This document shows positions 1 to 51,339 of a stretch of 64,000 bases of DNA, piece after piece; position 1 is the first letter of the stretch, and each line of letters begins with the position of its first letter. A model generated the notes under the pieces. The model had not been told where the DNA came from and searched no databases. It saw only the letters and a list, made by a program, of their open reading frames with translations. This DNA comes from Tribonema minus (taxonomy: Eukaryota; Sar; Xanthophyceae; Tribonematales; Tribonemataceae), in the NCBI GenBank assembly GCA_017506865.1, contig JAFCMP010000035.1:620001-684000 (forward strand), read 5' to 3'. The translations under genes and the position numbers were made by a program.

Positions 1-54
1 TTGTTCAGCATGACTTTTTGAAGCATTCCACGTGTGCCAGTGCAACAGCCTCAC

Positions 55-3000
55 CTGTCGGCTGACACCCCCGCCGGCAGGTGCCGTATAGGGTACTCTT
101 CCCCCCACTGGCACTCAAACAGAGCTCCAGCAGCCCAACCGTCGAACGTTGCCAGGAACCGGCCCGGGCCCGGAGCCGGTTCCTCGCTCGAAGGGTCTGG
201 ACAGTCGCAAGCGGGAGGGGAGCGTAGGCACAAGACCATGGTCATCAACCATATCGTTCTTCTTTGTTCATGCAATTCATCAGTCAATATAACAATCCGT
301 GTGATGCTGCCTTTCGCTCCTCGTGAAACCCTGTCAGGTCCAATGCAAATCCATTCACCTAGGGCAGGTGCACGGCCTGCAGAGCCTGTCAGCGGAGCAC
401 TGCCACGTGGCACCCGACCCCCCTACAACCCCCCAAGCCGCATCGCTGTCGTCTCAGCCCCTACCCATGATTACGATCAATCATATAGAAGCATGAGCCG
501 CTGCTACAGTGTCATGTTTACACTACAATGTTCTCACAGGCACTGTCCCGCAGCATGCCCCGTCTTCGCACATGTTCGAAGGAGGCATGCAAGCCGGAAG
601 GCGCTACAACGCAGAAGCTGCACCGTTCTGCTGTGCGGGCCCTGCAGTTGTAATCATCATGACCATCGCATCAGGCGCGGTACATGGCCTGGGCTTGCGA
701 TCAAAACACAATGTTGGTGCGTTGACGCTGCCACATGCGTGGCCCGCAGCGCCCGACCGCTGAGCGCTGCGCCGCTGTCCGCGTACACGACAAGTTCAAC
801 TTCGCCGGCACCGGTGCGCCAGCTGGACAGCCTCCATTCTGTGACGATCTCGTCCAAAACTGTGATTTCTTGCTAAACATCATATATGTGCGTTCGGCCC
901 GCATGCATGGCCTGCAGCGCCCGCATCGGCAGCCCTAAGCAAGCAGGCGTCAGCATACACGAGAAGTTGAACTTTGTGTGCGCCAGCCAGCCAGGACAGC
1001 CCCCGTGGGGGCCTGCAAGGCAACAGCACACAAGCCTCGCTCCCTTGCTGACCGTCGGGGAGGTACATGGCCTGCAGGGCCCGCACAGGCGGCACTTCGA
1101 GGGGCTCCTGCTGCTGGTTGCCGCCGCCGCCGCCGCCGCCGTCTTTGGCCGCGGAGGATCGGGGGCTGGGGGAATGAGCGCTGTCGCGCTGAGCGCCGTC
1201 ATGGCCTGTGGCAACAGGAAACCAGAAACATGCATTTGAGGAGCTGACGCCATCGGCTGTGGCAGCGACGCTCAGCAGCGGCTCGCAGTGACGGATGCGA
1301 ATGTTGACCAGCTCGAGCGATAGCTGCGTGAACGCTTTTGACATTGCTGAGCACTGCGCAGGTGGTGGCTCGCAGTGATCACGCATACGTCAAAGCGCAT
1401 CACTTCTCCATGCATGTCTCTCCTCCAATAAAATGTAGGCCTGGTATCTGGGTTCAGTCTACCCACAACCTCGAATTCATACAACCACAAATCCAGGCAT
1501 TTCCCATCAGTTTTTCTGCTCTGTGTAACTGCCTCTAACTGCCACTCACTCACCTCGCGCCTCCTGATCGCCGTCAGCGGCGCCCTCTTGCGGCTCCGGC
1601 GCCGGCGGCCTGAAAAGGAGTTGCGATGCGGGGTAAGAGAACGTGGTGGTTAGCAACCTCCTACTGTACTTGATTTATTTTTGCTTGAGGGGCAGAAAAG
1701 CCTGTGCTGGCCTGAGCTGGGGTCAGGGCTCAGGGCGAGAGCAGGGAAGGCTGCCATGGTTTGCATTCACATGACATGCTGTGGTAGAATAGGGTTACGC
1801 CCGGAGAGATGGTCCAGTTGCCTCGGGGCTGTTGCATTCCATGAGATCAGCAAATAAAAATGTAAAAATTCGCACGTTATGCTCTGACCACTTCTACAAA
1901 GGTGCCACATGGTGTCATGAACAGCTGCCATCCATCTGCTGCCAAGGAGTGCATGTCCAAAGGCTTCTCTACGGGTGTGAGCCATGGCTGTTCGACATCC
2001 TATCCACGCAAGTACGCCCACTTGAGCTTGAGCAGCAAGCTCTGCTGCCACAGGGGTGCATTTGGCATCACGTGGCCATGCGGAGACACGCGCAACATGG
2101 TTCATGCACAGGTGAAGGTGGGAAACAGCCATTGCACTCAGCGTGTGCATATCACTCTGAAGGCACCGGAAGGTAGGATTTACGTCGACACGCTTCACGC
2201 TACAACACAAGGCGTCCGCTTGGGAGGCAAATTCGGGCGGCGGGGGTGTGTCTGCGCCGACGAGTTGCCCATTGCGCAGAGCTGTGCGCAGCACTGTATG
2301 AGATTACATGCAGCAACGCGCGATGCGCCCACCACAACGCAGAGTACTGTTTTGCCTGTTGAGCGCCCCTGCGACAGCGGCGCGCGTCTCACACAGGAGC
2401 GCGCCATGTGTCCATCACGCAGTACTGCTTTACGGACCACGCGCAGCGTCGGTCGCGACTCCAACGCAGCAGTGTGATCGTGCTCACTTGAGTTTCAGCT
2501 GGTAGGCGCGCGACGATATGTTGGGCAGCAGGTACGTGTGCGAAGTGTCTGCACCCAGGAGCTGCCCATTGCTCAGGTCGTACTCAATCACGCCAGACAG
2601 GCCGCACGCTGCAGCAGCACGCGGGAGGCGCGGGGGGAGAGGGGGGGGGGGGGGGGTATTTTGAGCAAGGAGAAGGCATGTGTGTGCGTATGCGTTTAGC
2701 TTCGAGGTATCTGGGCTGATGATTACAGGGTAAGTACGACTATGCCTCATTGCTTGAAATCTACGAGGTGCTTGCGAAACTCAGCGTTTCTTCAGATTGC
2801 ATCGTCAGCAGTACCTTTAACCGTTGTGTATGTCCCTGTGCATGTAAGTAGACAATGAAAGCCGCTTAAGTTTTGCTTTTAAAAACCATGTGCTGCCAGG
2901 ACTATGACGCACGCGGCCGTGCACCTACACCATCCCACCCACCATTACTTTCGCCCCACAAGAGTGCAAGACCCCATCTGATCGGTGCACAGCCCCATGT

Positions 3001-6000
3001 AGCAGAGCATGGCTTCAAAGTGCATCATTCCAATTTTGGTAGGAGTCATCAGCAATGGGCATTAGTTCACTGAATGTAGACTCTGGTGGCAAGCTTGACA
3101 TGAACCATCTGGGCGTTCCCATGACTAAGCAAGCAAAAATGAAAAACGTTACTTCTATTCCCGCACATGGCGCACGAGCCGCGCGTGCACACGAGTCATG
3201 AGCCGCTACTGTAACCGCACGCCAATTCAGGGCGGGGCAGATGACACCTTCAACATACTTGCCCCGCGGGCGCCCCCGCTAGTCATACATCGGACGGACG
3301 TGCGCTGCGATCCGAGGTCCTATTGTGTTCGTGGTTCAATGATAATGATGATGGTTTGACAGCGCCGCAGGCGCTCGCCTGCCACGTGCAAACGAGGTTA
3401 CGGCTCGAGGTCTGTTCGCGGCTGATCGCCTGCCGCGAGGGCCTGAGAGTTGTGCCTCCACGCGATGCCAGTGCTATCGCTGTTCATGACCAACCACTAC
3501 GGCTAAGACATGATGATGCTTATGATACGATCATGGTTTCAAAACACTTTTGGTTATAATGAGTCTAGAGCTGCGTTGCGTGCGCTCACCTGCCGTGAGG
3601 GCGTGAGTGCCGAGCCTCCCACGGAATGCCGGTGCTACTGACTGATATTTCGACACGTTTAACGTTGTTGATGCAAGTATTTATAAGTATGATACGATTA
3701 TGATTCGATGTTGCGTTGCGCGCGCTCACCTGCCATGAGGGCCTGAGAGTCGTGCCTCCATGCGATGCCGGTGGGCGTGGTCCCGTCCGGCGTCCGCACA
3801 AAGCCGCCGGGAGAGTAGTGGAAGCCGTCGTCGAAGCCAACTGACGTCTTGGTGAAGAAGACGGTGCCGTCCTCGCCAGCTGTACAAGGCAGCAGATGAC
3901 AGCGACGCAGTTGCGCGGGTTCAGTAATCCCAACAGTCGGTGTTAAGTATACTCGGGCGTATTACAAAATAAGGTGCAGCAGAGTGAAGTGTTCACCTTA
4001 TGGTGGCTCTCACAGCAGCAGCTGTAAACAGAGCATGGGAGGCCGCAGGAGTACGATGCCGCGAAGCTGCGAAAGCAGACGTAACTCGAGGCAATCTCAA
4101 CTGCTACTTCAAGTGTGTGATGGCTTCATGCAAAATGCGCAGTGTGCGGTGAGCCATTCTTATCGGCACGTGAAGCGAGCTCTTGACTGCGCCCGCCTCC
4201 GAGTGCTGATCAACCTGCGTCAAACACATCATGGAGTCGGCCGTGGGACGCCACACCCCCAATCAGGGGCTGGTCTTCACGTCACCTCAACTCTCGCAAG
4301 TTGGGCAGTTCTCTCAAACAATTGGTGACTCAAGGCAGCTCGGGTGGTGTGTCACCGCTGCATGTAAGTACACGTTTGTTCTGTGAGCTGGGGGTTCAAC
4401 ATCACAACCCGCGCGTGTGTGATGGCAGTGCTCGGCAGCACTCACCTCCTGCGGCAGGCCAGCGCCAATTAAAACGAATGCTGAGTGCTGGGGATAACGT
4501 GAGGTCAGCGGTACTTCCTACCCTCGATAAGCCGCACTGATGCATCTCCGCACCGAAGAGACAAGTGTCCTGTGAGAGTGCAACTTATTAGGCATTAAGA
4601 TAACTTGTTCACCAATGTTGTGACACTTGTACTTAGAAGTATAACTTTAATGTTTAAAAGATAAGATACGACACAAAGCTTGACCACCTAAATTTTTAGA
4701 CAGTGCAGGTTTGAAGATGTGCGTGGTGGTGGCAGTGCTCAGCAGCACTCACCCGTGGCGAGCCACCGCCCGTCTGGGCTGTAGCTGGCGGCGGTCACCG
4801 CCTTGTTGTGGGGCTTGAGAGCCTGTGTCAGGGCGGCATGAGTGGATGGAAGGTAGAGCTCAGCTCTTGATTCTCAATGCAACTGCGAGAAACGGGGGCA
4901 ATGCCCTTTCAAGTAACCATACGGTGGGCACAGCTTGCAAGCGCGCACAACGCAGGAAGCGTGCCTCGGACGCTTGGCGTCTGGTTAGGGTTGGGCTAAG
5001 CCTGACCCTATCCCCACCTAAACCCGAATGCGGTTTTTGTGCTCCAACATAGGCGGAGCCATGGTGCACAACACTGTGAGGATCAACATAGGCGCGGCAC
5101 ACGCACGTTGCATGGATAAATGTCACAGATGCACCTGCTCAGAGCCGCATCTCACTTCCGCTCTCCGTTAAGTGCCATTGTGATTGCCCGAGTGGCTACG
5201 CTGAATCCGCATTTTTTTTCAATCGGTCGGTGCTCTCACTGGATTGTACTTTTATCATTTAGCAGGTGCTCACTGCTTAGTCTCAGAAAGGTCTTGATGG
5301 TACCGACGGTCCCAGCCATGGCCAGGCGTTTTTACCGCAAGTCACAAACATACACAGTAGTGAAACTGAATCGCCACATCAACTTGCCTTAGTGCAGTAC
5401 AACTTCAGAGCAGTGCAGGAAGTGATCACTCCCTACTTCTACAGAAACTCATACGGTGGAATAGCGTTATGTAGCGTTACCTGTGCGAGCCGCAGCTTGT
5501 GGCTATCTGGATGAACGCGCCACACCGACCTGGTTTAAGGCAGTGCAACTTCAAAGAAAAAAGCGGCAAATCTGGAGTGCAGAAAGTGGAAGCATCTACT
5601 TCTACAAAAATTTATATGGTGGAGTAGTGTTACCTGCGCGAGCCGCAGCTTGTGGCTATCGGGGTCGCGCACCAGCAGCCTCACCACGCCATCACTGCAA
5701 ACGAAGAGCAGGAGGACAGCAAGACGATGGTTGTTGCTCTGAGATGCTTTCCACGAAACCACCACACCTCACCACACCTCAAGAGATAAGCGACGGAAGG
5801 GGGGGGGGGGGGGAGGGGGGCTGAAGCGGCTGGCATGGCTGATTGACCTCAAGTTATTTCACAGTCACTCATTACTGAAATTATGGCAGCTACGAGAGGC
5901 ATGCCGCATAAGGTTGAGAAGGCATCCAACCGTAATCGCTCTGCAGCAAACAGTGCTGCCGGGAAGTTCGCTGCGAGCAAGGCCTGCACTGTGCGCAATC

Positions 6001-9000
6001 GCAGTGCTCAAGCAGAGCTAAGCGTGACCGCATTCTGTAGTTCCACTAATATTTTGATCAGATTGAGCAGATAGGCGGCAATGCTGGCTACCTGGCTGGT
6101 GTTGCCGTGTCTACGAGAGCTTGGCCTTGTGCGGTCTAGCGGAACATGAATGGCTGCCAACGCTCGCCTCCCCTTTCTGTGCCCCTTGCTGGTTCCTGGT
6201 TTTTGGCCCTAACTTTCCCCAAAATTGTCGAAAACTCTGAACCTGCCACAAGCACAATGAATTCACATCGGTGGCTCTAGCCCAAACCCTAACCTAGCTC
6301 ATCGCACCAAGTACTCCATACCTACATACCTGAATCCTACCACGATCATGGTGCCGTCAAGGTCCAGGAAGCTGGTCCCAACCCTAACCCTAACCCTAAC
6401 CCTAACCATACCTACATACCTGAACCCTGCCACGATCATGGTGCCGTCGAGGTCCAGGAAGCTGGGTGCCCACGTGACGCACGTGCTGGCTCCCGTGCCG
6501 TAGAAGGCCACTTCTAGGGGCACCTGTGACGCGCGGGCAGATGCAGGTTCACAGTCAGAGTGTGTATGTGGCTTGCAGAGGTCTGTAGGCTACATGTACA
6601 TTGACGTCACGTCGTGCAGGTGCCGACCATAACTCCAACAGCCTGTTTGCAGCAACAGAAGGCTAAGGATGGAGTACGCCTGCTCAGCGAAAGTGCCATC
6701 AACTTCAACTTCATAAGAAATCCCCTCCCTTGCCACCCTGACCCTTCAAACTGTAGACCAAAAGCAGCCGCGACTCGTGTCGCTGCGCCGTCATCAGCGC
6801 CGGCAGTCTTGCGAGCGTCAAGTTTGCAGTGCCTGAGTGACACGCAGCATCGCCAGCACACCATGTTTTTTTTTGCTTTGCGGCACCCGAGCGCGTGCTG
6901 ATTTCAAACTAGCACAGAGCGGGTGCGCACGCCGCCTTGACGGGCAGAGTACGACTAGTGGGCCTTTTCGCGCCCTGAGCGAGATTCTTATTTAAAAAAC
7001 CTACAGTAAGTGATACATACATACTCCGCACCTTGAGCCGCATGTCCCACGTGCGCACGGAGCCGTCGGCGCCGGTGGTGACGCACAGCGCGGCGCCCGC
7101 GCGCCCGCTCACTGCGACGCTCGTGACGGCGCCGCTGTGGAAGCACGCCGGCGGCGGCAGCGCTGCGCAGCGGGCGCGGGCGGCAGCAGCAGCAGCAGCA
7201 GCGGTGGCAGAAGCAGCAGCAGCGTAGCTCAGCAAATGGCGAGAAGGCCGAGTGCCACCGCTGCTCAGCAGGGGTGGCAGCAGCGGCGGCGGCAGCAGTG
7301 GCGGCGGCAGCAGCAGCAGCAGCATAACAGCTCAGCAATTGGCAAGCAGCTGTAGCACTACCTCCTCAGCAAAACAGAACTTTGCAGCTTCTGATGACGC
7401 CACCTTCAAAGCGCCCCAGCGGCAGCAACGCTGCTTGATCTGGTGCCCCCCAAAAGCCAGGTGGCTCGCCTTGCGTTGTTGTCCCTCTACCAGGTGTTGC
7501 GTGCTCGCTGAATGTGCATTCACTGTTCTTTCATATGGTACTACGCAGCTGATTTTGCATTGCGTTCGGGTTGGTCACGATGCATAATTTGAACTTCCAG
7601 GGGACTTTTCGTTGACCAGCCATGGTGCACTCTTCCAGCAACAGGCCGGACGCAACTGCTTTCTGTAAGCCGTACTTCACTCATGAGGCACATATTAGCA
7701 CCGGTTGCGGTAGCATGTCAAAGGTCCACATGAGCACACACGAAGAGGTAACATCAAGTGCCTTGCAGCAGCACTTCTTGAAAGACCTTGAAATCATTAT
7801 CATACATGCATAGTTCCAAAGCAACAATCAAGTCATTCATTGCTTCACCACATCACGACTGCCGCGGACGACACGCTGTCGGGGTAGCCACATCGGAAAC
7901 CGCAGCGCCTATCTATGATAACAGGTGCAATATTCCCAGAATAAACTTCAAATGATGGACCCTTTTTTGTTCAAACAGAACGAGGTCGTTTGATGCAAAA
8001 TCACGTGCAACAAAACGTAGAACTCGCGTCGATACTTCCTCTATCAGCGACGGTTTACATACTTGCGCCGTCGTCTTGCTCCCAGATGGCGGCCATGCGC
8101 AGCGCGCCTCGGCCACCTGCGGAACGTTCCGGCGCATCAAGAACCAGAAAATGGTCCCCGGACGGTTCCGGTGCGCCAGGCGCGGTCCCCGGCGCCAGTC
8201 CGCGCGGAACGACGCCCTCTCCCAGGAACAGCTCTTTCCACGGCTCTATCTCCACCTGTGAGGGTCCAGCAGATGGAGATTAATATGCCATGACGCAAGA
8301 AGAGGACCGGTGAATGTGAGTTGTGGCGATATAGCTGCGTGCTTGTTCGTGATAGCGCGCCACGACGGCAGGCATGGCTCTCGTTGCACTCGCTGTCGCT
8401 TCGGATTGATGCAATGCCGTGCAGTGGCGGCATGTTCTGACAGACAAAATCACGGACAGCAGAGAGTATTGCATTTATTGACATCCGAAACGATTCAGAT
8501 GGACCATTTGCGTCTCTTTGGTATGTGATCAATTGCTGAGTGTCAATTAAGCTCAAAATGCGCTCATGCGTACAACCACTGGGCCCGTGTAGCTACCTCT
8601 CGAGCAAATCCCTAGCCGCATCCTACTCCCCACTGGCATGTACTTTACTCGGTATGAGCGTCCGTTGCCTCTGCCGCATGCGCACCGGCAGAGACCCCCA
8701 GCTCCAACCCTATATTTGACACCAAGTTTCACCGTCATGTCACCCTGATGCCAAGGCATGAAAAATCAACATCAATAGCGTGCCCAGCCGGGCTCCGCGC
8801 ACGCAGCGACAGCCTCGGGCCGTAACCTCACAAATCTCAACAACCCTATACCGTATCCCCACTCCCCCACTTTCTCGGTACTGTACCGACCCTAAACGGC
8901 AAGCGGTGACACTCACATTCAGCGCGTGCTCAGCCCGGTCGAACAATGCTATACCGTATATATCCCCACTTCCAACTTCCCTGGTACCAACCAACTGACG

Positions 9001-12000
9001 GCAAGCGGTGACACTCACATCCAGCGCGTGCTCAGGGCCGGTTGCCTCATCATCTTCAACTTCCCTGGTACCAACAACGGCAAGCGGTGACACTCACGTC
9101 GAGCGCGTGCTCAGCTCCGGTAGCCTCATCGACAAAAATCAACTTCAAACTTCCTCAATACAAACCCTAAACGGCGACATCAATCATCCATCTTGAACTT
9201 CCTTGGTACCAACCCTGAACGACGACTTCAGTCATCCACGTCAACCTTCCTGCGTACGAACCAACAACGTCAAGCGGTGACACTCACGTCGAGCGCGTGC
9301 TCAGCGCCGGTCGGCTCCGCGGCGTCCACAGCCACGAAGGGCCACCAGCGCACCCAGCCGTCGGCGGCGGCGGTTACGAAGGACCCCGCCGCCCTGTCCA
9401 GCTCGACGTAGACGACCAGACCTGAGTGATGATGCACATCGCGCAAATCAATCGCATGTGTCTGTAATTGGCCATAAGGATGATACGTGATGAGGTAGGG
9501 ATGTGCGAGAGCTCGAGTTTGAGGGGATGCCAAGCGCGGCAACCTACACATGTGCTACGCAAGTTGTCGATCTCCGGCGCGCCCTCCCGCGCTGATCGCG
9601 ATGGCGACAAGCAGCGAGGACAGAGCACCACTGTTCTTGCGTCGTCATCAAATGCTCACTCCAAACTGCGTTGGTGCCATTTTTCTTGCGTCGTCATTGA
9701 ATGCTCTCGTTCACACCGCGATGGTGCTGCAGAGGGCATGCGCAGCCCATGCACGCAAACATACCTACCCCTACCTGTGTGGCACGGCTCGTTCCCGGGC
9801 CTGCGCAGCCTGCACTTGATGAAGGGGCCCTCCCACAGCAGCAGGTCGCCGCAGTCCGTGCCGCTGAGCACCTGATGCGGCGACGCGCGTGATCGCGGCG
9901 ACGAGTGCGACTCAGAGTCAGAGTCGTGGTTGACGGCAGCAAATTGCCGATACACTGTGTGCACATGGCGAAGTACCAGGTGTGAAAGCGAATGAGCGAG
10001 TCTGTAGAACAGCGGGTCGTTGCGGCCGCGGCCTGCGCGCACTTAGGGTTAGGGTTATGGTTATGGTCGACGACCCCCGGGGCGTAGTCACAATCGAGGA
10101 AGCGACAGGGTGCCCTTTTGTAAGGAAGGGGACTGGCAACAGTCCCTGATGCTTTGTGAGAAGCCTGCTGCTGAATCCGGAACCTAACCCTAATCCCCTG
10201 ACCCAGGCGAAGTTATATTACAGTGTGTACGTCCTCAGGGCTTCAGCTTCAGTTTTGCCAAATGCTTCGCAGACGGCAGGGATAGGCCTCGTCCTGCCTG
10301 CGAAGTGCACACCCCACAGCCACGGCAATGACCAGTCTCCCTCTTGCAAAAGCGAAAAAGGCTTCATTCATTCAGCATTGACAATTGCTGATTCCACACA
10401 GTTTTGAAACGAACGTCGGTTCACGTCATGACGGGGCGCTGTGACGGCTGCCTTCAGCTGCAACGCCCTTCTGCTCAGATGGCAGTGCTCAGTAAGGCAG
10501 CACTCAGGAGATGCACAGCTGCAGTGCTCAGCGTAGTGCAGGCCGGGCATCACAGAGCTTTGTGCTGGTCAGGATGGCGTACAATGTCAGGTGCATCGCG
10601 GCTCCTAGTTGTGGTCACAAGCCCTTCACTGGTGACAACTGAGCAAGTTCATTCGTGCACAGTGCGCCGGTGACGGCAGCGGTTCTCGCGGCACTTGAGA
10701 AGATTGTCGTTGGGCAGCACAGCGCACTTGAAGTACCTCAGCGCACACGCACAACAGGGCGCTGCCTACCTCACAAATTTAGCAGCGTGGCAAATGCATG
10801 CGGTCTTTCGTGCAATAATTGCGAGCTGACTTTCGATCAACTTTTGATTTGGAGATGGAAGAACAATGCACAGAAGCAATGTATTTTTGGAAAAGTGTTT
10901 TTTTTATTTCAAAACTTGAAGACAATAACATATGCTTTTTTTTCAGCAACCAAGCAGCGCTTGGCCCATGGCAGCGCTCACCTTGCCGTCGGGCAGCACG
11001 GCAAACGCCAGGACGTCTGACAGCTCCACTTTGCCAAACCTGCCGATGTCACCTGCGCCAGGACACGAGCACAGGTACATTGGGGGGGCAGTGTTGAGCT
11101 CGGCTTCCCGCAAGCCGTCATGATCTGGCCCCGACTGCGACCAGGCGCTCTATGACTTTACTCACATCAGGGGGACAATGTTGGTCATCCCTCGCCTAAG
11201 TAGCTGCATCCGCCGACGTGTTGAACTTCACGCAGCACACATAAGAAATCTCTCGGCCGTGAGGTCTGAGGAGATCACAGGTTCAAGCACACATTTGATA
11301 CGGTACCTCATACTTCTACATCGGCTGTGAATGCGACAGACCTGTGAGTTGTGAGAGAAAGGCAGGTTTCATACGCATTCGCCCAGCGGCAACGCGGCCC
11401 GTGGGCTCGGTCGTACTCCATCGGTGATCATAACCGGTCGGCCACTTCACATAGCTTTGGTTCAAGGCTTGCATTTCACGCCTTTGAGAGACAGGCCGCA
11501 CCGCTCAGCAAATGCAATACGGACATGGACACAGAAGAGTTCACCGGCAGGACAGTGTACAGATCATTCAGGTCACAGGCAGCACAACGTGCAGGCGACC
11601 TCTGCCGGGAGACGCGCTCGCTGCGCCAAGCATCGCCCCGAGCAGGACAGAGGAGTACATGTGCAGTACAGAGTACAGGCCACGCGGTTCACAGGCGGCA
11701 CAGAGCACAGATAACCTCAGCTCCGACACGTGCCCTTGCTGCCCCTCAGCCGGATGTACGTGATAGGCGCGCAGGCGTGCGCGCCAGGCGCCCTAGGGCT
11801 AGGGTTAGCGCTGGAGCGCACTGCACAGGCGACGCTCGGCCTGCCGGCGCACACGCGTGCTGCAGTATGAGATGTGCTGCATGGAAGGCGCATGCCATGC
11901 GCCACACGGCCAGCTTCCCCGAGACCTCCAGGCGTCTGAACATGGACACGTGGAGTGCCTTCCATTCCGTAGGGGCGCCACCAAGAACTTGCCAGAACTT

Positions 12001-19595: not shown

Positions 19596-20870
19596 GCTGC
19601 AGATATCCCGGTCGACGCCTTCAGGTAACTGTTTCTGAATCTATATCGTGTTCTTCATCGACACAGACAGCGAGAATGATTGCAGCTGATTGCAGTTCAG
19701 ATCCGTTACTACGCCAGAACTGCAACTACGACTTGAACTACATTATTGAGGTTCGATACACGTGGTGACGCGAGACGCTCGTTACCGCTGCTGTCGTTGA
19801 CTTGTACCATCAACGAGCTGAGGAAGAAGCAGCAGTGGTTGCACAGGCGCACACACCATGGTGCGCTGTTGTTGGAGCAAAAGTTGGTGTGTGGTCGCGG
19901 CGGCATGCTCGACCTGCTGCTTGTTGCAAACCAGCGTGTGTGAGGCGTTTGTTGGCGCGTGCAGCGACCTGGCAAGGCGAAGGAGCTGCGAGCACAGACG
20001 AGCATTGGGCGGTGCCGCCCCGAGGATGGTATTGTTACCGGAGAACAGCCCTTACGCTCAGGTGCATTCAAGTTCAACATTCGTGGTTATAACGTGCGTT
20101 GTGAAGGCAGATGTTTCAAGTTGCTGAGCTGCCATCATAATATCTTGATGTTGCACCCTCAGTGCCAGTGGTGCGCGATTGCTTACGGCTAGAGAATCAA
20201 TCGTCTCCGAGGCAAATCATAATGTTTGAAGCATGCGGATGCAGTCTAGTCAGCTTATGGTTGATACCCGCAGTGCCTAGTGCTGACAGCAGCCGACCGC
20301 GCGCGTCACGCGCTACAATCGACCCCGTGATGCAATCCTATGGTGTTGATCGCCCAACATTGGATTCTTAGAGCTTGCTCCAGGGAGGTTTTAGTGGTAA
20401 TACAGTCGTTTAAGACTTTTTACAAATATTGGCAACGGATTGATCAGCGGCAGTCCAGATTACGTAAATCAACTACAAACACCAATCCTTATCAGATGTG
20501 GGTTCAGCCTTCTGCCATACCAATATGTATAATTAGGCCCTGTGGCAGGTGGTCAGCATTTGTGTTTTCCCTTCAATACAGAGCCTGGACCACATTGTCG
20601 CTGCGTTAGTGACACAGTCAACTGGCCAATTGCGTCCGGCTGTGGCCTTGTTGTTCAAACCCTACTGCGCTTCTCAATCTACATCCGAAGGACAAGCTTG
20701 CATGGGAGGACCCCTGGCCTGGGCACATCGTAGGCATCCTTCCTGTGAGGCACGGAGTCAGTTTTTGAGGTGACGTACAAGAAAATGCGACAATTTTGCC
20801 ACAATTTTACATCCGAAACTCTTGTACCTGAATCAGGAGACACAAGGACGTACAGTCTCCATGCATCGCC
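19596..20870. promoter_or_regulatory. Region between the divergent CFAP44 and unidentified plus-strand genes
   Basis: CFAP44 starts leftward at 19595 and the first supported piece of the plus-strand gene begins near 20870, so transcription of both probably starts in this 1.3 kb. No TATA-like element or conserved promoter motif could be named. The 5' exon(s) of the plus-strand gene should lie here or slightly upstream, ending in phase 0, but none could be chosen. An open stretch around 20570-20680 preceded by a CAG acceptor is one weak candidate. Confidence 0.3.
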
Positions 20871-21090
20871 GGAACCAATGACGCTCGCTGAGAATTGCTC
20901 TCCCACAGCACCCGTGCCCTACTCAAATCTGCTGTTGACTGCGCCACGCTGCAGCCCAAGGACGAACCGAACGCGCTGCCCAAGTACAAGCCTGACCTGC
21001 ACTGTTGCTCTTGACTCCGCCGCGCCGCAGCCGAAGGATGAGCCGAACGCGCTGCCTAAGTACAAGCCGATGCCGGACTACCCCGGCAGC
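20870..21090 (+). repeat. Two copies of the 5' edge and acceptor of exon 21192-21349
   Basis: The true acceptor (CCGCTGCAG then CCGAAGGACGAG) is preceded by copies at 20951 (CACGCTGCAG then CCCAAGGACGAA) and 21029 (GCGCCGCAG then CCGAAGGATGAG). Both keep AG and read PKDEPNALPKYKP. The preceding intron segment (GGAACCAATGACGCT to CTGTTGACT) is repeated as well. Confidence 0.9.
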
Positions 21091-21191
21091 ACTCATGGCT
21101 GGAACCAATGACGCTAGCTGAGAATTGCTCTCCAACAACGCCTGTGCCGGACTCAACTCTTGCTGTTGACTGTGACCCCACCCCGCTGCAG

Positions 21192-26116: not shown

Positions 26117-26158
<42 letters not shown>

Positions 26159-38062: not shown

Positions 38063-39681
38063 CGGCGGGATTCGGACCGCGCCGCCTCCGCCGTGGTGCT
38101 GCGAGCTGCGCCAGGTGAGCTGTGCGCGCACTCGCGGTGCGCTCAAGATCTCAGGCATGCGCTTCAAGCTGTCTTCACTGTTTTTCTGACTGAAGTCCCA
38201 TAGGTCGCCTCCCGCAAGTGTCGTTGATGAAAGGCCGGGTCGTCCCCCTCTCCCCCCTGCGCACTCATCCAAACCTCACGAGCAGCATCAGAGTACATCT
38301 TGCAATATGCTTTTCCCATCAATGGGCCATGCCCTGGTTGGCCGCTTCTGCCACATCGCACTTGCACCCTTACTGCGGATATTTCTGCATGTCTGCGAGC
38401 GGGACATGACCCCCCCCCCCGGTGCCCTCCCCGCCCCGCTGACCAGTTGCACTCTATAATATGTAGGGTACACAGTGGCGTCTGCTTGTGAAGACATGCC
38501 TGCTTGACCGCCTCTGCCTCACATGAGTGAGTCGCCCTTGTTTACAAGTCCCTGCGTGCCAATGAATGATTGAGAGACTGCTGTTATTCAACTTGGCTGC
38601 ACGTCAGGAGCACCTCTGGGCAACACGCTGCAGATTCGCGCACCACAGCGCATTTCCTCGACCTTGCAGCTTTCACAGTCTCCCCTCCTCAGGTTTGCAC
38701 TTTCCATTGTTTCTCCCTGTCCTCCTTCAACGCTGCGACTCCTTCCAGCGCCGCGCACGCTGGTGGCGACGTCTGCTGCCGCCGGCGCCAAGCAGGAGAC
38801 GCCGCTGGGCAAGGTCAGCATCACCATCACATGATACAACTTTGACTACTGTGGATATGGTGGCACTGTTTGACTCGTGGCCAATTGCCGCAGCAGCGGC
38901 GGCCACGGTTGTCTGTGGAAGGCATTCAATTTGACGGCTGACGACACCTTGTCACCCAGAGCTCTACGATCTTTTGATTCGTTTCCACAATACTTCAAGT
39001 ACATATATGACAGCATGTTCGTGACGTTCAAGTGAGGCGCGCACGCGCAGAAGCACCCAGGCGCTCGGGCTGTGCTGATTTCATTTTCAGATTTGTGGTT
39101 CATCAGCAGACGCGCCGCGCCGTGGAACATGCGTGGTCGCGCCATGACCGGCGCGTGTGCGTGCATTCTGGCAATGTCAGTCCAGCTCGACGATCATTGT
39201 CGCATGGGTCATGCGACATTCAGAAAGGCCATTGATCTCAGCTGTTTGGGCCTAGCAGGAGCTGCGTTCGATGGTGGTGGTGGGTGGTGGTGGGCCACAT
39301 GGTACCTCGCACTTTGTAACTGCCACCGCGCCCTCAGCAGCTCAGCGCCGTGCAAAAGTGTGCTGCAGCCAAGGCGCCTGTCACAGGAACTGGCGTAGCT
39401 TGTTTTTTTACTTGCTCGTTGTCGTTGTCTGTGCCACTTTGAGCTCGGCAGACGACGGCAGCGGCGATGCACGGTCATCCATGCCACTGAGCAGAGCCAG
39501 CCGCCCTTTTGAAGCTGCACAATTGAAGCGTGGCTGTCTCAGGGGTGCAGACGCGTGTCTGCGGCGTCTCCTGGCCCTCTGAATCCCCATCGAGCAGTGC
39601 TGCGCGCGCGTGGCCCGGTGTAGAGCATTGCCAAGTGCAGTCCGATGCACGCCGCCGCATGCTGTACATCTCCTCACGACG

Positions 39682-39721
<40 letters not shown>

Positions 39722-42700
39722 GCTGCTGCTGCTGCCGCTGCTGCTGCTGCCGCTGCCGCTGCCGCTGCTGCTGCTGCTGCTGCTGCCGCTGCTGCTGCTG
39801 CCGCCGCTACTGCTGCTGTCGCCTCTCCGCTGTGCCAGTTCCTCATCTCCGCGAGCGTCTCGTGGGTCTTTGAGGCCCTCGGCGGCCACTACCTAGAGTT
39901 CCTCAAGATAGTCAAGCAGACCAAGCCGGGGTCGTACGCGGCCCTCACCAGGGAGATGGTCGCGCAGAAGGGCATTGTCGGCCTGTGGGATGGTTTCTTC
40001 CCGTGGGGGTCCCTCCAGGTGCGGTTGGCCTCTCCCTCACATTTCAATGCTGACCCCCCCCTCTCCCCCCAGTGATTGAGAGATGGTCGCGCAGAAGGGC
40101 ATCGTCGGCCTGTGGGACGGCTTCTTCCCATGGGGGTCCCTCCAGGTGCGCTTGGCCTCTCCCTCACATTTCAATGCTTAACTCCCCCCGCCCCCCCCCC
40201 CCCAATGATTGCGAGATGTTAAATGGAAGGGCAGTGGGCCTGTGGGACGGCTTCTTCCCGTGGGGGTCCCTCCACGTGCGCAGCTTGGTCTCTCCCTCAC
40301 ACACACACACACCACCCCCCCATACCCATAACTGAGAAATGCTGAAGGGTATTGTGGCTCTATGGCTTTTTCCCGTGGGGGTCCTTCCAGGTGCGCAGCT
40401 TGGTCTGTCCCTCGGAGCTCATTGCTTACCCGCCCCCCCGCCCCCCCCCCCCCCCCCGTACTCATATATTTGAGAGATGTTAAACTGAAGGGCATTGTTG
40501 GCCTATGGGGATGGCTTCTTGCCGTGGGGGTCCATCCAGGTGCGCAGCCTGGTCATTCCCCCAGAGCTGTCTCATGGGGCATCGACAGAGCTCGTTTGCG
40601 TGTTCATCTTTTTGCGTACGTTGAATTGAATACACCCCTTGCCTATGCTCCAATACTGTGTGCGACTGCTACAACCCGCTTTCAGCGGGCGTTGTGCGTT
40701 TCAAGGCTCCATGAATTGTGCCAAGTTGCAGGTCTTTACCGGCACGTGAAGCTCATGTTGTTGGACTCGGCATGCAAGCAGCCGCACAGCAATGCAACCA
40801 AGGACACATATTTATATGACCGCTGCTAGCATGTCCGCGCAACTCTAACCTTAACCCTAAACCATACCTCAGCGACAAGATCATCTGCCGGTCAGCTGGT
40901 GCCTGCTGCGCCGCCGTCACGCATTGCTAACTCTCCCTATGCTGCTCCTGTTGAGCGTTGCTGCGAGCGCAGGCCGTCTGCAAGGGCGGTGTCTTCGGCG
41001 CCGGTCACACGTTTGCCAAGGGCCAGCTGAAGCCCTTCATGGAGAAGGGCTACATTGGTGAGCGACGCTGCATCATGCCGCCGTACCTACCGTATCATAC
41101 TATGTTACAACAGTGATGATGTACTTCGCGTATCGATATTGTCCATATACTAGCGGAGTTCTTCATTGCATATACGCAAAGGCTATATTGCTGCGGGATG
41201 GGTTGCGCGCGCGGGCCGCATGGGTTGCGCGTGTGGACGGCAATGTGCGAGCCGTTGCAGTACCGCATGTATGATATTGTACTTCATGAATGATAATGCG
41301 CGTCGATGAGAACATGGTTGACATGTCAATAGTTTACACAATGTCATGTATGAAAGCATAGGTCACGTCTGATACTATGGTTCACATACAATCCAATACG
41401 ATACCACAGTCCAAGCAAAATACAACAGCTTGTGTATGATACAAGTTCACAAATGATACCTACCTCAGTAAAACGTCAGATCCGCCACCATGTTTTTTCC
41501 ATCAGCAAAGTCACCAGCATCGTACCCTCGATGCTCCCCCGAGAGGAACGCACCTGGGACGCAGCACGCACGAAAAGGTGTGACGCCACCCCCGCCCTGG
41601 AATGCTTCTGGCAGGACACGGCGGGGGTCGTGAGGGACTGTTTTTTTTTCCCCCCCTTCGCCTGATTGCTCAGTGCGTAGGAGTTGGCATATTTTAAGAA
41701 GCATGTTGTCCCGCGCGCCTTACCGACTGGTTCTTCAAGGCCAAGTGCAAGGTGCCTGTTGCACGGGCAGGGGGGGGGGGGGGGGGGGGCTGCGTCCCGC
41801 CCCACCCCACTCCACTGTAGTCACATCGCCATGTTTGGGCGCGCATGCCGACTTCAATCGTCACATCTCACAGCTTCAGCCGCCCCCCTGGGCCCTGTGA
41901 ACCCAGTTTGTACTTATGATCTGTTGGTGCAGAAAAGTCCGCCTTTTTTAAAGAAATGTGCATCGGATGCAGCACTTCCTTTCCACAGCGAGTCTCGATT
42001 GCGAACCACGATTTCCCAGGTCTCCGACTGCGCTCACTGTTTGCAGTGCACGTACTGCAAGTCTGTGCGTCTGTTAGCTGACTCATCGTCCGTAACGACA
42101 AAAACATGTGAAAGGACAACATTGACTCCGTGCAGTCCTCCGACGCCCAGCTTTCGAACAATCAACAGAAATTTATGAAGCAGGCCTCTCTGACGGCTCC
42201 GCTTGCGCTGCTGCTGCGCCGAAAAGACACCAATCAAACTTTCAAGGTATAAATAAACGGTGTACGTCTCCATTATTTATGTTTTTTAAGAATGCGAAAA
42301 GAATTGAAAAAGCGCCCAGACTTCTCTCAAGGTCCTCATTTTTCAGGAAAGCTAACGCTGCGCCGCGCGCCCCCGCCGCCTGGCAGGCAATGGCACGTGG
42401 GAGGTCGCGTCCGGCGGCATCGGCGGCGGCATCCAGGGCCTCATCCTCAGGTAGGCAGCACTCAGAAAGCACAGCGCCATGCTCCAGCCCCCGAGACTTT
42501 GTGTCACGACAGGCCCGGCTGTCTCATGGTCGGGTGACTTGGCGATTGCGGCGCGGCGATTGCGGCGCGGTGACGTATGCCTACGTGGTCCCGGCGCAAG
42601 TGCTGGCGCGTGTGTACGAGGCGGGAACGGCAGCAACGGAGGCAGTTTCAGTAACTGTTTCACGTGCTGGCCGCACAAGGTCGAGCGGACGTCTGGCGTT

Positions 42701-45700
42701 GCGCTGATGCTCGGCCAGAGTTGCGGCATCGTAAATCGGCCTGTCTGCGTCTCGGACCCGCTCGCGACCTTGCCTTGGACAACTGCGATGGGCATTTGAT
42801 CGCCCGATTGCATGGATCGCGCAGCTGGCTCAGGGCTGGGTTCAGGGTTAGGGTTAGGGTGAGGCGCAATGCCAGGACCGCCCTCCAGAGAGTGGATGCA
42901 GCGCTCGGCGCACCCGGCATAGTGCAGGATTCGCGGTACACGACCCGCCCAGGTTGCCTGGCCGTGCATCCAATCACAACGGTTTGACGGCGAACCGTGG
43001 ACAGCCTGCTTTTCACTCACTTCAACTTCAAGTGACATGCCTGCCAGCTACAGCAGCCAGGTCGCCCCTTGACCTCTCCACACAACAAGAAAACAGGAAG
43101 GGCACGGCCCTGAACGTCCGAGGCCTCGCTGGCACCGGGCTAGTGTGCGCTGCATGTCTTGCTGACTTGTGGATCGTTGTTCTGTTCGTGCCTCCTGCTC
43201 AGCCCGACGCTGCTGCTGCAGACGCACCTGAGAGCACGCGGACCTGAGCGCTGAATGCTGTGCTTGCACGAGCTGTGTAGCGGGCACTAGATTTCTATTC
43301 ATTTGCTCCAGCAACTAACTCGAGCATGGGTTGCTGTCTCGCCCACGCCTCGTGCTCAGCCCGACGCTGCTGCTGAAGACGCGCGTGATGACAGACCCCG
43401 TCTTCAGGACCAACCTCTCCCTCATGGAGACCACCGCACAGGTATGCACATTACGGTAATCAGCGGACGTCACACTGATTTTTTCCTACCCGGTAAAGTG
43501 TAGTGCTCATTGGGGTTTTTGAGGCAGAAGAGCAGCCATGAGAGACAGACATCAATCTCATGACTTGCACAGTGCAGCAGATACAATTTCACTGTGACGC
43601 ATGAAAGAGGGGCCTGTCAAAGATGGCGGGGGCAGTGGCGACGGCGCCTGCACGCACGCTGCGACGTCTGATCTCCTGGCTGTGTGCCTGTGCACGCGCC
43701 TGTGCGCACACTTACTCGATGCAGTCATAGCATCATTCACACACAAGGACCCCCCTGAGGTTGTCAGTGGCAACGGCAATTGTAAATGCATCACGCGTGG
43801 AGCACGCGCATGGTGTGTACGTATTCCTGTTTGCCGGCCGCTAGCGCTGAGCGTTGCTGGCCTCTGTGTTGCTGAACGTTGCAGGCGCAGGCTCGAGCTT
43901 CATGTCGCTGCATTGAACAATTAGCATAGCTGAGGTTTCCTGAGTGAGCCGGAACACAGTTGAGCTTGCGTTGACTTTCATGCTGCTCTCATTGTCTAGC
44001 TGAGCGACTGGCGTCTGTTGCTGGTCATTGCTGCTTCGGCGCAGCTTCACGTCCCTCAATTCCGCTCGCCTCGTGTTCGGGATGGTCTGGCGTCAGGTGC
44101 GCTCACAACTAGGGCCATGGCGGACGTCAGTGCCCGAAGGACGGAGCGTGCCTTGACGTGCGCAACTGATGCTCTCTGCTGCTGAGCACCTGACGCTTAC
44201 TGCCACTGCGTGCTTGTCCCGCGCAGTCCTTCAAGGTGGGCATGAAGGTGATCCGCAACGAGGGGGCGCTGGGCCTGATGAAGGTGAGTCAGCCTCAACT
44301 GGAACTTGGCTCCAATGGGCGGATTGTCATGCTATCGCGTCGCATGCGGCGCACGCTGGACCGCCGGTCCAAGCGCAACTGCGCAGGGAAATGGCAGTAA
44401 CGATGTGACGATCAGAGCGCTTGTGTGCTTTTCCAATCTGAAGATGCAGCTCTGTGTACGCCGCTGCGCCGCTGGCTAAGTCACTGCAGCCCTCCGCTCA
44501 ACCCAACGCCCGCCGCAGCCGTGCGGACGCGTACACAATGCTCACAGCGCGATGCATGCAGCGCATGCAAACCTGTTGCTGGCCAGACAGCTATGACTCG
44601 TTCATACTTTGACTCAGACCCGTGCACTTGTCGCAAGTCACGGCGCCAGCTCTTCATGATAAATCCTGTACACCGCGAGCCCACGTCAACCGGAACGCGG
44701 GTAGCTCCGCCGCTGCAGCGGCGCACCTCGGAGCCAGACGCAGCAGAGCACTTCCCAGGATTCGCGCTTCTGCCGCGTGGGCAACGCTTCATGAACGATT
44801 CGTGCATAAGTGTGAATGGCCTGATTCGTGCATAAGTGTGAATGGCCTGATTCGTGCATAAGTGTGAATGGCCTGCCGCCGCCGCCGGGGCGTGCCCGTT
44901 GAACGCAACTGTTTCGGGCGCGGTAGCCGCACGTGCTGCTGTATCTCGTGCGCCCCATACGCATTGGCGTGTGCGATGCTTGCGATGAGACCGTGGTTGC
45001 CGGAAGCGCATGCGCGATGCGCGTTCACAAGGGCAATTGATTTGGAGAACGAGGGTGAAGCTGGCGCGTGGCAGGGGGGAGGGCCCTGCGCACACCCCTT
45101 AAGCACGCACCCGTTGCGGACTACAGCTCTACAAGCACATCGGTCCAGTCTGCTGGCGCCTGCGCAGTCCATAGCGCACATGTGTCTAGATCGATGACTA
45201 TGCACGACCCTGAATCCCCCCCCCCCCCCCTGCGACGCGATGGCTCTGCGCGTGCTGCTGCCTCTGCCGCTGCCAGGGCTCCATGGTGTTCTCCGGCAAG
45301 CGCGTAGGCGACTGGACGACGCGCTTCTTCTTTGCGGAGACGTGCGCAGAGTACCTCTTCAAGTGAGTGTGGCAGCGCTGCGCCCGCCCTTCACAACACA
45401 AATTCTATCAAGTGCTGCATTCTTTTCATGTAGCATGTAGAGAAAGCAGTCAATCATGACGTTACTCAGAGAATGATGTACGGAGATAACAGTTTGGCCG
45501 CGCACACATATATTCTACGGTAGTGTACCTCTTCAGGTGAGCGGCCGTGCTCAGCACGTCAGTAGTTTCTGCAGCCGCGTCGTACGTCGTATGGCCTGCT
45601 TAGGGGGGCATGCGTCAGCATCGCAGCGTGCCCCCCGGGCGCCGCGCCTCGCGCTGTTTATTATCATCGCAGCGTGCCCCCCGGGCGCCTCACGCTGGGT

Positions 45701-48700
45701 ATCACTCAGCTTCTCTCATTGCGCTCAAGCGGGATTTCCATTTGAGGGACGCAGGCGCAGTCAGGCGCGGCGGTGCGCAGCGGCAAGTGCTAGGGTTAGG
45801 GCAAGGGTTAGGGTCAGACAGTTGGCACTGAAGCCAACAAGAGGGCTGCTGGCATGAGACGACCATTCTTGCACAGCCTGCCTTTGAAAGAGGGCATGTC
45901 GCGTTCGACCACCCGCATGGCTAGATGGCGTTCGCTTCTCAAAGGCGGTCTGTGCTGAGGGGTGCTGGGTGATCGGGCAGTCGTTCTGCAAGTAAGGGTG
46001 ACGCACCCCTAAGAGACACAGTGCACAGATTGAGCAGCAGCGCTCAGCAATGCTGTTTGACTTACAGGGGGAGAACGGGAGGGGGGGGGGGGGGCAGAAA
46101 CCTGCACTTTGGAGTCGCATGCACGGCACTTGCGTGTGCTATACACCAGGCACGCCCGCGCACATTGTCGATGCAGCGCTGCCTACATTGCGGTCGTCAT
46201 GACCCCCTCTCAATGCACATCGCCCCCCTCCCCCCCACCTGCAGGAGGCGCAACCCGGATCGGGCCATGACCGTGGGCGAGCACATGACGTCGTCGATCC
46301 TGGGTATGTTGGCATGATGAAAACAAAACAAAGAGGAAGAGCTTCTTCGAAACACACAAAAATAACGTTCTCAAAAAAAGAAAACCATTTTCGCATTTTA
46401 TGCACGAGATGCCTCCTGTAGGGGTACAACGGCTGTCGCCAGCAACGTCGCCGCGCCGAGCGTTGTTTTGCAGCCACCACGTATCCTCTAGAAAATTACC
46501 AGTTGCGGCGCCGCCGCAGCCACGTTAGCAGAGACAGCCTGAACGTCAGCTCTCAAGTCCTTGTCGAATTCGTTCGGTGCCGCATGCGCATTCCCAGCAA
46601 AGCAGCAGTAGGCCATACTTTGCAGAAGTAGCAGTTTGAGATGGCAGTTGGCAGTGCTTGATAATTTCCTCAAAGTACCTCCTGGAGTAAAGCCAAAAAC
46701 ATCAGGCGCTGGGCTGCATTGTGCGTCTGCTTACGCTGCCCAAGCGGCACCACCAAGACCTCCATCATGACACAAAAGCATGAGCGCGACCTGTTGAAGG
46801 CATCTCACCTGATGCGGCAATACTCTTAGCGCCATCACCCACACGAAAGCGATCGCCACACATTCTGTTGCGAGATTCCGTTGTGCAACTGTTGCATGCT
46901 GCTGTTGCACCTAATGGTGCCGGTGGTATTCTGATGAGCTCTGAGGCATTATTCATCCCATAGACGTCACAAGTAGACGCCAAGTTCGTGCAGATTCAGC
47001 AGGCGAGCATTGGGGGACTACTCTTTCTGCCTCTCCCCACCCAAATAACGCCATCGATTTATAAGCAATTGTCCTATGACGCCCCCCTGCTCCCTCGCCC
47101 CTTGAGAATTCAAGAAGGCACTACTGGACTCAGACTCATTGCCATAGGCGTCATGTTTGCGCAAAGTCAGCAGGCGAGCAACTACTCTTGAGCAACTTCT
47201 GTTTCTGCCCTTTCCCCCCCAAACAACGTCATCAATTCATGAGCGATCGTCCTATGACACCCCCCCCCCCCCCCTCCGTCAAACCTTGACATTTAAACAA
47301 AAAAAAGGCGCACCACTTGACTCAGACTCATGATGACTCAGACTCATGGTTCCCCTCCGACTCCTCGTGTGCACCACGTTGACAGGCGGCGTCATGTCCG
47401 CGCTCTCCACCATCCCCATAGACGTCATGGTTCGCAGATCCAGCAGGCAACCTACTCTTTCTGCCCTTTCCCGCCGAAACAACGGCATCGATTCACAAGC
47501 AATCGTCCCATGACACCCCTGATATTTTTACAGGAGAGGCACCACTCGACTCAGACTCTTAATTTTCCCCTGAATCCTCGCGACAGGCGGCGTCATGTCC
47601 GCACTGTCCACCATCCCCATAGACGTCATGGTCGCGCAGATCCAGCAGGCGAGCAAGGCGGGCGAGAAGGTGTCCATCATGGACACCTTCAGGGCGCAGT
47701 ACAGGGAGGGCGGGGTGAGTGCGCTCGTTCACAAATTGAATCACAACAGCAGAAGATGTAGGCAAAAATCAACAGCAAATCAAATTGTTCTCGATGTGCT
47801 CTTTGAACGATTGTTGCGTTGTTCATGTTAGCCACCTGTGTGGAGAACAGGCCTCGGAATGTGTACTGTTTGCGAAGAGTCCGGGAGCAGGATGCGGGCC
47901 GCACATTTATTTATAATCAACTGGTACTGGCCAGCGAGTGCAGGCACGTAGCAGCAGAGTACTGTACTAGCCGGTAGGGTAGCATAGCAAGATGCCCTTG
48001 ACGACCAACATCAGCGGTTGGCCACACTGAGAGGAAATCATGCAGTGCAGGGAGGGTGGGGTGAGCGTGCTCATTTACAATATATCCATGGTGTCACTTT
48101 TTGAATAGATGGGAGTTAGCGCATCATGTTGAAGTTTCATTTCAGGTCAGCAAAGACATATTCCAGCCTTCACCTCTCACTACCACACACCTCAACGCAG
48201 AGTCACGCAGAGGTGTGTCTATCATGAATAACATGAAGTTCAGGGCACAAGGAGCAGGGCGCGTTCCCCTTTGAGCTAGGGCACTGGGTGATGTCCCGCT
48301 GCTTGCTGAACTACAGAGTCGCCTGTGCCACTATTTGTGATGGGTGCCTAATAGCATTATTCTGCTGCAGCGACAGGCAAACGATGTCTAGCTTACCGTG
48401 TGCGCAGTGCAGTGCGGCACAAGGGCGCTGGCATGGCAGCGCCAGCACACCGCGCGCCACTGCGTGGTGTGATTTGCTGCGCCTGCACCGGTGTACATGA
48501 GCTCACTTTTCTCATCCCCCTCTATACTTGCGCCGATCAGCACTACTGTACAGCCGCGGTTACGTGAGTGCGCTGCCAAGGCGCGAATCATGCGGTGCAT
48601 ACCCCCAATAGCCTCCAGGTCTCTACGTGCACAAGCTCAGTAAGAGCATACGCATTGTGGAGTACGACGTGGTGCAGAATGGGGTTTCCGCCACTGAAAC

Positions 48701-49606
48701 GGAAGTAAATCAAGTGCCATTTGGTATTGATTAAAGTACTATTCTGTGCTGACTAGAAAGTTTTTACCCGTTGTCCGCTACCCTCCTGAGCACTGCAGGC
48801 GCAGCAGATCGTGGGCTTTGCCACGCGCGGCTTCCTGGCGCGCGCTACGCACGTCGCCCTGGTCACCATGTGAGCCGTGATGATTGAGCGTTGTTGCCGT
48901 CGCCTGACGACCTCTGTGGTGAATCTTTGGATGTCACAGACTTTCGTCGTGTGAAGAGTCGTAGATGATGTAGATGATGTGAGAATCGCAGCTCGCTCGA
49001 GAGGGCTTGAACGACAAAAATGCAAAATTGAAGTGCAGTACTGTGTGTATGTGGTTGGAACGCTTTGCACTACACCACATGGCAGACTTTCAGGAGGTGC
49101 CACAGCGCCCTCGAGCACCTTGACAATTTAGCGTTTCCGTACACGCAAAGTTACGCATGCGTACACGTGGGCCTACATACAAACACTTCGACCGCAGGTC
49201 AAGGCCTGATGACTTTTAATCTTCAACTACCCCATCCAAGCAAGGGAACACTTTCGCCCTGGCAGCATTTTCAGAGGGTGCGCTCACTCGGCGACCTCCG
49301 CTTGTGAATGCCCGCACCACCCTGGTCCACGCTGCTGCTGCTGCCAGCAGCACCGCTCAGCGATGCCACTCTGCTACCGTGCTCAGCCCTGCACTCTTCG
49401 CACTGCAAAGCATGGCCGATAGTGCCATGCTAATCCACAATGCGCGCGTGCGATGCAAGTCTGCATTCACACGGGGAGCGCGTCGTTCCGCTCACTGGCC
49501 TCTGTTCACGACTGTCAATGCCGACGGCTGCCGCAGGCTCATGAAGACGGGCGCGTCCTACGTGTACGAGTTTGTGTACGGCACAACGCCCACCAAGAAG
49601 CACTGA
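38063..49606 (+). CDS. Mitochondrial carrier family (SLC25) protein, Yhm2-like, 12 exons
   Basis: Predicted inner-mitochondrial-membrane solute carrier. Exons: 38063-38114 (provisional), 38749-38813, 39839-40018, 40973-41057, 42387-42450, 43360-43441, 44227-44283, 45277-45362, 46245-46303, 47587-47714, 48799-48869, 49537-49606 (stop TGA). All borders are GT-AG with matching phases; about 332 residues with the provisional exon. The three carrier repeats are recognisable but their P-x-D/E-x-x-K/R motifs are altered: GGHYLEFLKIVKQT (first), LSPTLLLKTRVMTDP (second), STIPIDVMVAQIQQ (third). GLWDGFFPWGSL, VCKGGVFGAGH, GKRVGDWTTRFFF and ATRGFLARATHVALV match the fungal/oomycete Yhm2-type branch; Yhm2 exchanges citrate and oxoglutarate, but the substrate here is only an inference. 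The N-terminal stretch RTLVATSAAAGAK could be a presequence. The initiator Met exon was not found. Confidence 0.9.
39684..39832. repeat. Interrupted (CTG)n/(GCC)n tract in front of carrier exon 3
   Basis: About 50 triplets of CTG with CCG interruptions end 7 bp before the acceptor at 39838. The tract occupies the place of a polypyrimidine tract. Polyalanine, polyleucine and polyserine frames through it are not coding. Confidence 0.95.
39960..40570 (+). repeat. Five-copy array of carrier exon 3 (39839-40018) 3' edge plus donor
   Basis: The edge KGIVGLWDGFFPWGSLQ with donor GTGCG is real at 40019. Copies have donors at 40146, 40276, 40391 and 40540, all with GT kept; spacing is 127, 130, 115 and 149 bp. 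Units are joined by C-rich tracts; one (before 40073) ends CCCCCCAG and thus looks like an acceptor, but the reading frame then meets TGA at once. Confidence 0.95.
43185..43230 (+). repeat. Copy of carrier exon 6 (43360-43441) 5' edge plus acceptor
   Basis: CCTCCTGCTCAG then CCCGACGCTGCTGCTG at 43199 duplicates CCTCGTGCTCAG then CCCGACGCTGCTGCTG at 43360, with the AG intact. Separation is 161 bp. Confidence 0.85.
44800..44875. repeat. Triplicated 23-bp unit
   Basis: TTCGTGCATAAGTGTGAATGGCCTGA occurs three times head to tail (about 44799, 44826, 44849) in a carrier intron; the last is truncated after GCCTG. Confidence 0.95.
45515..45555 (+). repeat. Copy of carrier exon 8 (45277-45362) 3' edge plus donor
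   Basis: GTGTACCTCTTCAGGTGAGCGG repeats the true edge GAGTACCTCTTCAAGTGAGTG, about 175 bp downstream, donor intact. Confidence 0.75.
46955..47700 (+). repeat. Four-copy array of carrier exon 10 (47587-47714) 5' edge plus acceptor
   Basis: Exon starts at 47587 (real), 47386 (acceptor intact, reads MSALSTIPIDVM), 47148 (AG kept, decayed) and about 46961 (decayed). The copies also carry the ATCCAGCAGGCGA exon stretch and then an intron-like tail ACTACTCTTTCTGCC-TTTCCC, and share CGACTCAGACTC upstream. Confidence 0.88.
48025..48260 (+). repeat. Two fragments copied from carrier exon 10 3' part
   Basis: ATGCAGTGCAGGGAGGGTGGGGTGAGCG at 48038 repeats the exon end plus donor (GT kept) of 47695-47720. 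GAGGTGTGTCTATCATGAATAACATGAAGTTCAGGG near 48210 repeats the exon stretch for KVSIMDTFR. Confidence 0.75.
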
Positions 49607-51290: not shown

Positions 51291-51339
51291 GTAACGTATC
51301 AATTTTAAAAAACGACGGGCTCGCAAATCGAGCCGCATG

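Follow-up and report, generated by a model that had tools for sequence, protein, structure and literature searches.

The 64,000-nucleotide stretch of the Tribonema minus genome analysed here (assembly GCA_017506865.1, contig JAFCMP010000035.1, positions 620,001 to 684,000 of the forward strand; hereafter the window) contains genes whose introns carry same-orientation copies of their own splice junctions, which we call echoes. We examined base by base the four junction arrays named in a preliminary description of this DNA, which lie in a CFAP44-like gene (FAP44), an MFAP1-like gene and a carrier gene (Table 1), and this reading bore out every coordinate given for them. The names MFAP1 and carrier are putative labels kept from that description, and CFAP44 alone is backed by a structure-database match, between its exon and FAP44 in chain Do of PDB 8glv (E 2.1e-6), which we take to be a Chlamydomonas structure. 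On the minus strand, the CFAP44 donor G lies at 9287 and three junction copies lie at 9097, 9018 and 8916. In the MFAP1-like gene, the last base of exon 8 is 27424, and this edge recurs in four copies whose ends lie at 27332, 27223, 27136 and 27045 (spacings of 92, 109, 87 and 91 bp), the outermost of which has no GT; the acceptor of exon 7, at 28488, is preceded by three upstream copies at 28636, 28786 and 28950 in units of about 150 bp. For the carrier gene, the donor G at 40019 is followed by copies at 40146, 40276 (CACGTG), 40391 and 40540. Its unit is about 127 bp long with an exon part of about 66 bp, Tandem Repeats Finder (TRF) reported a period of 127 at 39953-40301, and this young array shows an uninterrupted unit from each copy to the next. 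Between 40050 and 40460, the carrier units include a C-rich tract whose length depends on the copy, a possible slippage site.

Table 1. Junction arrays and other direct-repeat arrays of the window, in window coordinates
Feature	Position	Strand	Evidence
CFAP44-like gene (FAP44), donor array	8883..9317	-	sequence reading and direct-repeat scan
MFAP1-like gene, exon 8 donor array	27025..27471	-	sequence reading and direct-repeat scan
MFAP1-like gene, exon 7 acceptor array	28429..28955	-	sequence reading and direct-repeat scan
Carrier gene, donor array	39946..40568	+	sequence reading, TRF, copy-to-copy alignment
29 of the 31 direct-repeat arrays of the window, including the four above	771..48080	.	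direct-repeat scan

Across the whole window, we found 31 direct-repeat arrays with spacings of 60-400 bp, whereas a single block-shuffled version of the window contained no repeat pair; 24-mers matching at 21/24 identity or better were direct in 113 cases and inverted in 10. Apart from the four named arrays, the 25 others in the last row of Table 1 were counted simply as direct repeats; the remaining two arrays begin at 53867 and 60842. Positions 49607-64000 hold 2 of the 31 arrays, and 56-64 kb is without a coding-like segment. Arrays may be rare outside genes, the count in the final 14 kb (2/31) being too small to decide between genic and intergenic density.

To follow the pattern onto other contigs of the genome assembly (158 Mb in 554 contigs), we used Pfam-located exons of kinesin and mitochondrial-carrier genes together with their surrounding DNA, taking 158 exon matches from the 132 kinesin and 146 carrier Pfam matches listed. 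Edges at domain ends and flanks shorter than 150 bases were excluded, leaving 212 exon edges; the terminal 45 coding bases of each served as probe against the adjoining flank of up to 1,500 bases, ended at the next known exon, and a score of at least 18 was called an echo. A same-orientation copy of the exonic end was present in the edge's own flank at 56 of the 212 edges (donors, 24/101; acceptors, 32/111), compared with none of 212 in the reverse-complement control (Fisher p = 4e-19). Probes from exon interiors matched in 3 of 159 cases and flanks of the other family in 1 of 2120, and the outcome was stable over score thresholds (60 vs 1 at a threshold of 16; 39 vs 0 at 25). At least one echo was found in 30 of 49 stretches (kinesin, 23/35; carrier, 7/14) and on 27 of 39 contigs, so that exon-edge copies, which the preliminary description had reported from four genes, are enriched elsewhere in the genome. 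The splice-junction echo pattern is real, quantitatively strong and present in both sampled gene families. One kinesin echo (C246:701357-701488, locus L012), identical to the exon edge at 45 of 45 bases, is intact enough to give a separate Pfam match (positions 268-311, the true exon matching 191-311).

We mapped 48 introns exactly, placing both splice sites between neighbouring exon pairs. These are ordinary introns (CAG|GTGAGT ... CAG|G) with a median length of 809 bp, and 24 of them contain a junction-spanning array, at the donor in 15, at the acceptor in 17 and at both ends in 8. Recognisable direct repeats cover about a quarter of the intron bases, direct repeats outnumbering inverted ones by 245 to 14 (the inverted ones each counted twice); repeat coverage extends into the exon, where it is 0.30 over the 20 bp next to the junction, drops to 0.01 between 80 and 100 bp and is 0 farther in. 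Edges carry one to seven copies, and successive copies are spaced by a median of 148 bp (quartiles 118-188); when spanning and internal arrays are pooled, the median shift is 141 bp. A copy combines roughly 30-60 bp of exonic sequence with the splice site and a length of intron; in the nearest copies, the exon part has a median of 43 bp (quartiles 31-58). Over 80 intron bases, 25 of 33 young copies and 25 of 46 older copies matched above controls (p < 0.05). The copies are thus direct and neighbouring and carry exon edge, splice site and intron, as junction-crossing tandem duplications do; we infer the rest of the unit from the spacing, and in old arrays it would run unbroken as well. In an ungapped profile, the copied intron seemed to extend for just 10-20 bp; gapped comparison revealed more shared intron, fading with distance. 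TRF was rejected as an array detector: run leniently on 251 kb in which 56 edges bear echoes, it returned 66 arrays of period 40 or more, 11 of them overlapping a known exon, so that it catches few arrays, although young ones are found.

Introns with echoes were longer than those without (1092 vs 652 bp, p = 0.0016). The nearest copy was more exon-like than the farthest at 17 edges, less so at 4 and tied at 3 (p = 0.007), and copy number was higher in spanning than in internal arrays (2.75 vs 2.18, p = 0.006). Length, similarity gradient and copy number are consistent with serial growth that starts at the exon and moves outward. The preliminary description had proposed that introns lengthen by repeated junction-spanning duplication, and this stands in part: donors and acceptors behave alike, echo-bearing introns are longer and growth runs outward, but the process is not confined to junctions. 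In the 47 introns in which arrays were classified (one of the 48, longer than 2,500 bp, was excluded), 29 arrays were internal and 31 spanning, and the junction echoes account for roughly half of a wider process of tandem duplication within introns.

Introns in this alga probably grow by tandem duplications that are tolerated, act over a short range and keep the orientation; the selected exon edge would be the one copy that does not decay. Duplications would arise at a spacing of about 150 bp, many of the units straddling a junction and typically comprising 30-60 bp of exon, the splice site and otherwise intron. The spliceosome would stay with the junction adjoining the exon (the first donor, the last acceptor) and ignore the copies; an extra copy would be tolerated because the exon-adjoining junction is still used, the messenger is unchanged and the copy stays intronic. 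Because selection on the protein keeps the exon edge unchanged, this edge could then act as a master copy that offers continued identity for slippage or unequal exchange; junction arrays would as a result persist longer and accumulate more copies than arrays lying wholly within introns. Long exon pieces, which would be recognised as exon extensions, may be removed by selection. By eye, we counted exon pieces longer than 75 bp in 5 of 49 nearest copies; most of the exons exceed that length.

The closest competitor, to which we assign a little less than an even chance, holds that tandem duplication of about 150 bp is uniform along the gene, that exonic events are purged and that junction-spanning arrays are simply the survivors, making a master-copy effect needless. 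The near equality of internal and spanning arrays and their pooled median shift speak for this account. A first null with uniform breakpoints predicted 22.4 spanning arrays where 51 were observed, and simulated uniform duplication gave about 24% spanning arrays against the 31 of 60 observed. For events with an age of 0.20-0.35 changes per site, the simulated share climbed to about half; the copies that we see, in which about 10% of the bases at codon positions 1 (151/1499) and 2 (150/1493) differ from the exon, are not that oldest class, which argues against uniform duplication. The exon share of the unit also departs strongly from it: in the 49 of 57 nearest copies that lie within 260 bp, weakly placed junctions included, exon pieces were shorter than uniform breakpoints predict (Kolmogorov-Smirnov p = 3e-6). 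The higher copy number of spanning arrays points the same way, though it is a measure prone to detection bias.

Several observations nevertheless weigh against the proposed mechanism of intron growth, and some of them favour uniform duplication. In simulation, copies of the conserved exon are easier to detect, which explains part of the junction excess; when arrays were detected from intron sequence only, removing this bias, 16 of 35 touched a junction against 10.6 +- 2.5 expected (p = 0.03), a modest effect. The copy-number measure shares the direction of this bias, a conserved exon being easier to match, and longer introns offer more space in which arrays can be found. The removal of long exon pieces by selection is a conjectured reason for the short exon share. 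The intron match weakens with distance, direct extension beside the nearest copy having a median of 31 bp, and intron windows 50-90 bp off the junction scored above controls in 13 of the 41 donor copies and 18 of the 46 acceptor copies. A later small sample of three carrier edges contained no echo (0/3), and the results come from two gene families and four window arrays studied closely, in one genome. Finally, we infer use of the exon-proximal site from protein continuity and not from RNA reads. A preference for junctions is likely, but it is modest.

The state of the copies bears on a second alternative, namely that they are functional, as selected alternative splice sites or exon ends or as spare sites buffering splicing. 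Among the donor copies 24 of 41, and among the acceptor copies 23 of 46, retain good splice-site scores, which speaks for function; copies whose junction placement was weak, or in which under 12/20 bases matched around the junction, were left out of this scoring and of the dinucleotide count. Across 110 copies, however, differences from the exon at codon positions 1, 2 and 3 numbered 151, 150 and 281; positions 1 and 2 differ equally often, and the copies show no codon constraint. This ratio of 1:1:1.87 (bootstrap 1.49-2.33; third-position share 0.48, 95% interval 0.43-0.54) agrees with a null of free drift in the copy and purely silent change in the exon, for which the limit is 1:1:2 and the third-position ceiling 0.50, and thus the copies show no sign of translation. 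The splice dinucleotides (GT kept in 26 of 31 copies, AG in 32 of 39) decay like neighbouring bases and are preserved no better than them. Splicing at the nearest copy would bring in a stop at 38 of 46 edges and a frameshift at 5 more, so that 43 of 46 would be broken; site choice must therefore be accurate, or faulty messages destroyed. We accordingly rejected functional alternative exon ends, and consider functional copies in general unlikely. The copies decay as unused, neutral DNA, in agreement with the proposal in the preliminary description that only one copy is kept in use, the working copy being assigned here from protein continuity and not from RNA.

Three further explanations fared worse. 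That the introns were born by duplication of an AGGT-containing exon, with echoes as remnants of the birth, invokes the same class of mutation, and a junction-crossing tandem duplication in potato did create a new intron (PMC4974935). In none of the 48 mapped introns, however, were the surroundings of the donor and its own acceptor alike (threshold of at least 18; best score 13), and in none did an array reach both junctions; AGGT birth is contradicted for those 48 and was rejected, and we regard it as very improbable overall. Introner-like or other mobile elements carrying splice sites, which according to the Amoebophrya genome paper (PMC7789003) are present in a green alga, a stramenopile alga and a dinoflagellate, were likewise rejected and are an exceedingly improbable source, since exon probes matched flanks of the other family in only 1 of 2120 comparisons, every array reproduces the exon that it adjoins and inverted repeats are rare in the introns. 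Assembly error was rejected as equally improbable: tandem repeats are easily misassembled, but the copies have diverged from the exon at both of the first two codon positions, and echoes are spread over most of the contigs sampled.

Within growth by tolerated tandem duplication, a stronger reading is possible, although we hold it tentatively and think it somewhat doubtful: that much of the intron length consists of the introns' own splice junctions, with the exon edge as a permanent template that seeds and renews the arrays. Coding constraint would then drive intron growth from both ends, and the spliceosome would routinely pick the exon-proximal of up to eight related sites.

Other searches of the window and the genome gave separate observations. 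A Pfam scan of 30 window open reading frames found nothing above the cut-off and one weak match below it, and PDB searches with two window open reading frames found no match. Genome-wide, the EsV-1-7 cysteine motif has undergone a strong expansion (550 candidates, of which 150 were scored), and single frames can hold several motifs in succession. Such an expansion, together with introns of about 800 bp, would be in keeping with a brown alga. Light-harvesting proteins gave 92 genome matches, and the one tested was nearest to fucoxanthin-chlorophyll proteins.

We compared the echoes with prior work, including a review (PMC3488318) and the Amoebophrya genome paper cited above. The potato RdRp gene, as described by Ma, Lan and Niu (2016, PMC4974935), acquired a new intron and inserted exon sequence through a tandem duplication across an acceptor junction, and the same paper describes an 83 bp duplication within a first intron that left the exon structure unchanged. 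Like the potato duplication, the echoes hold an exon edge, a splice site and an intron end; the potato case, however, is a single intron-making event, whereas in the alga existing introns would grow serially, at about a quarter of the tested edges and at both ends. Introns formed by tandem duplication are also described in Drosophila (Lehmann et al. 2010, PMC2891723; also PMC2809761 and PMC3296678). They resemble the echoes in the local tandem duplication of exon with its splice signals, but as Lehmann et al. present them they are new positions arising from proto-splice sites, around which the duplicated sequence is no longer recognisable. Segmental duplication of AGGT (the Rogers model; Hellsten et al. 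2011, both as given in PMC4974935) likewise duplicates splice-site-bearing exon sequence and gives birth to introns with matching ends. Unlike introns of that kind, the mapped algal introns had matching ends in 0 of 48 cases. Zhuo and co-workers reportedly found, in 2007, introns bred from tandem arrays in human genes, and Turri and co-workers are said to have described, in 1995, a minisatellite in the interferon gene 6-16 with several splice donors, an array spanning the donor. Both cases share with the echoes tandem repeats that carry splice sites; they reportedly concern particular genes or short repeats, whereas in the alga units of about 150 bp are a common state of exon edges. Single junction-crossing duplications are thus already known, and in a narrow literature search we found no report of a genome in which junction copies are a common exon-edge state.

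Intron lengthening is usually credited to transposons and small insertions. In this alga, the source of new intron sequence is directly legible and can be tied to a selected template, and the copies form a neutral record. The equal tolerance of copies at donor and acceptor ends suggests that splice sites may be recognised across the exon (exon definition). Gene-prediction programs may mistake echoes for exons, as the separate Pfam match of the kinesin echo illustrates. With two to eight related sites in a row, these introns are natural competition assays for splice-site choice.

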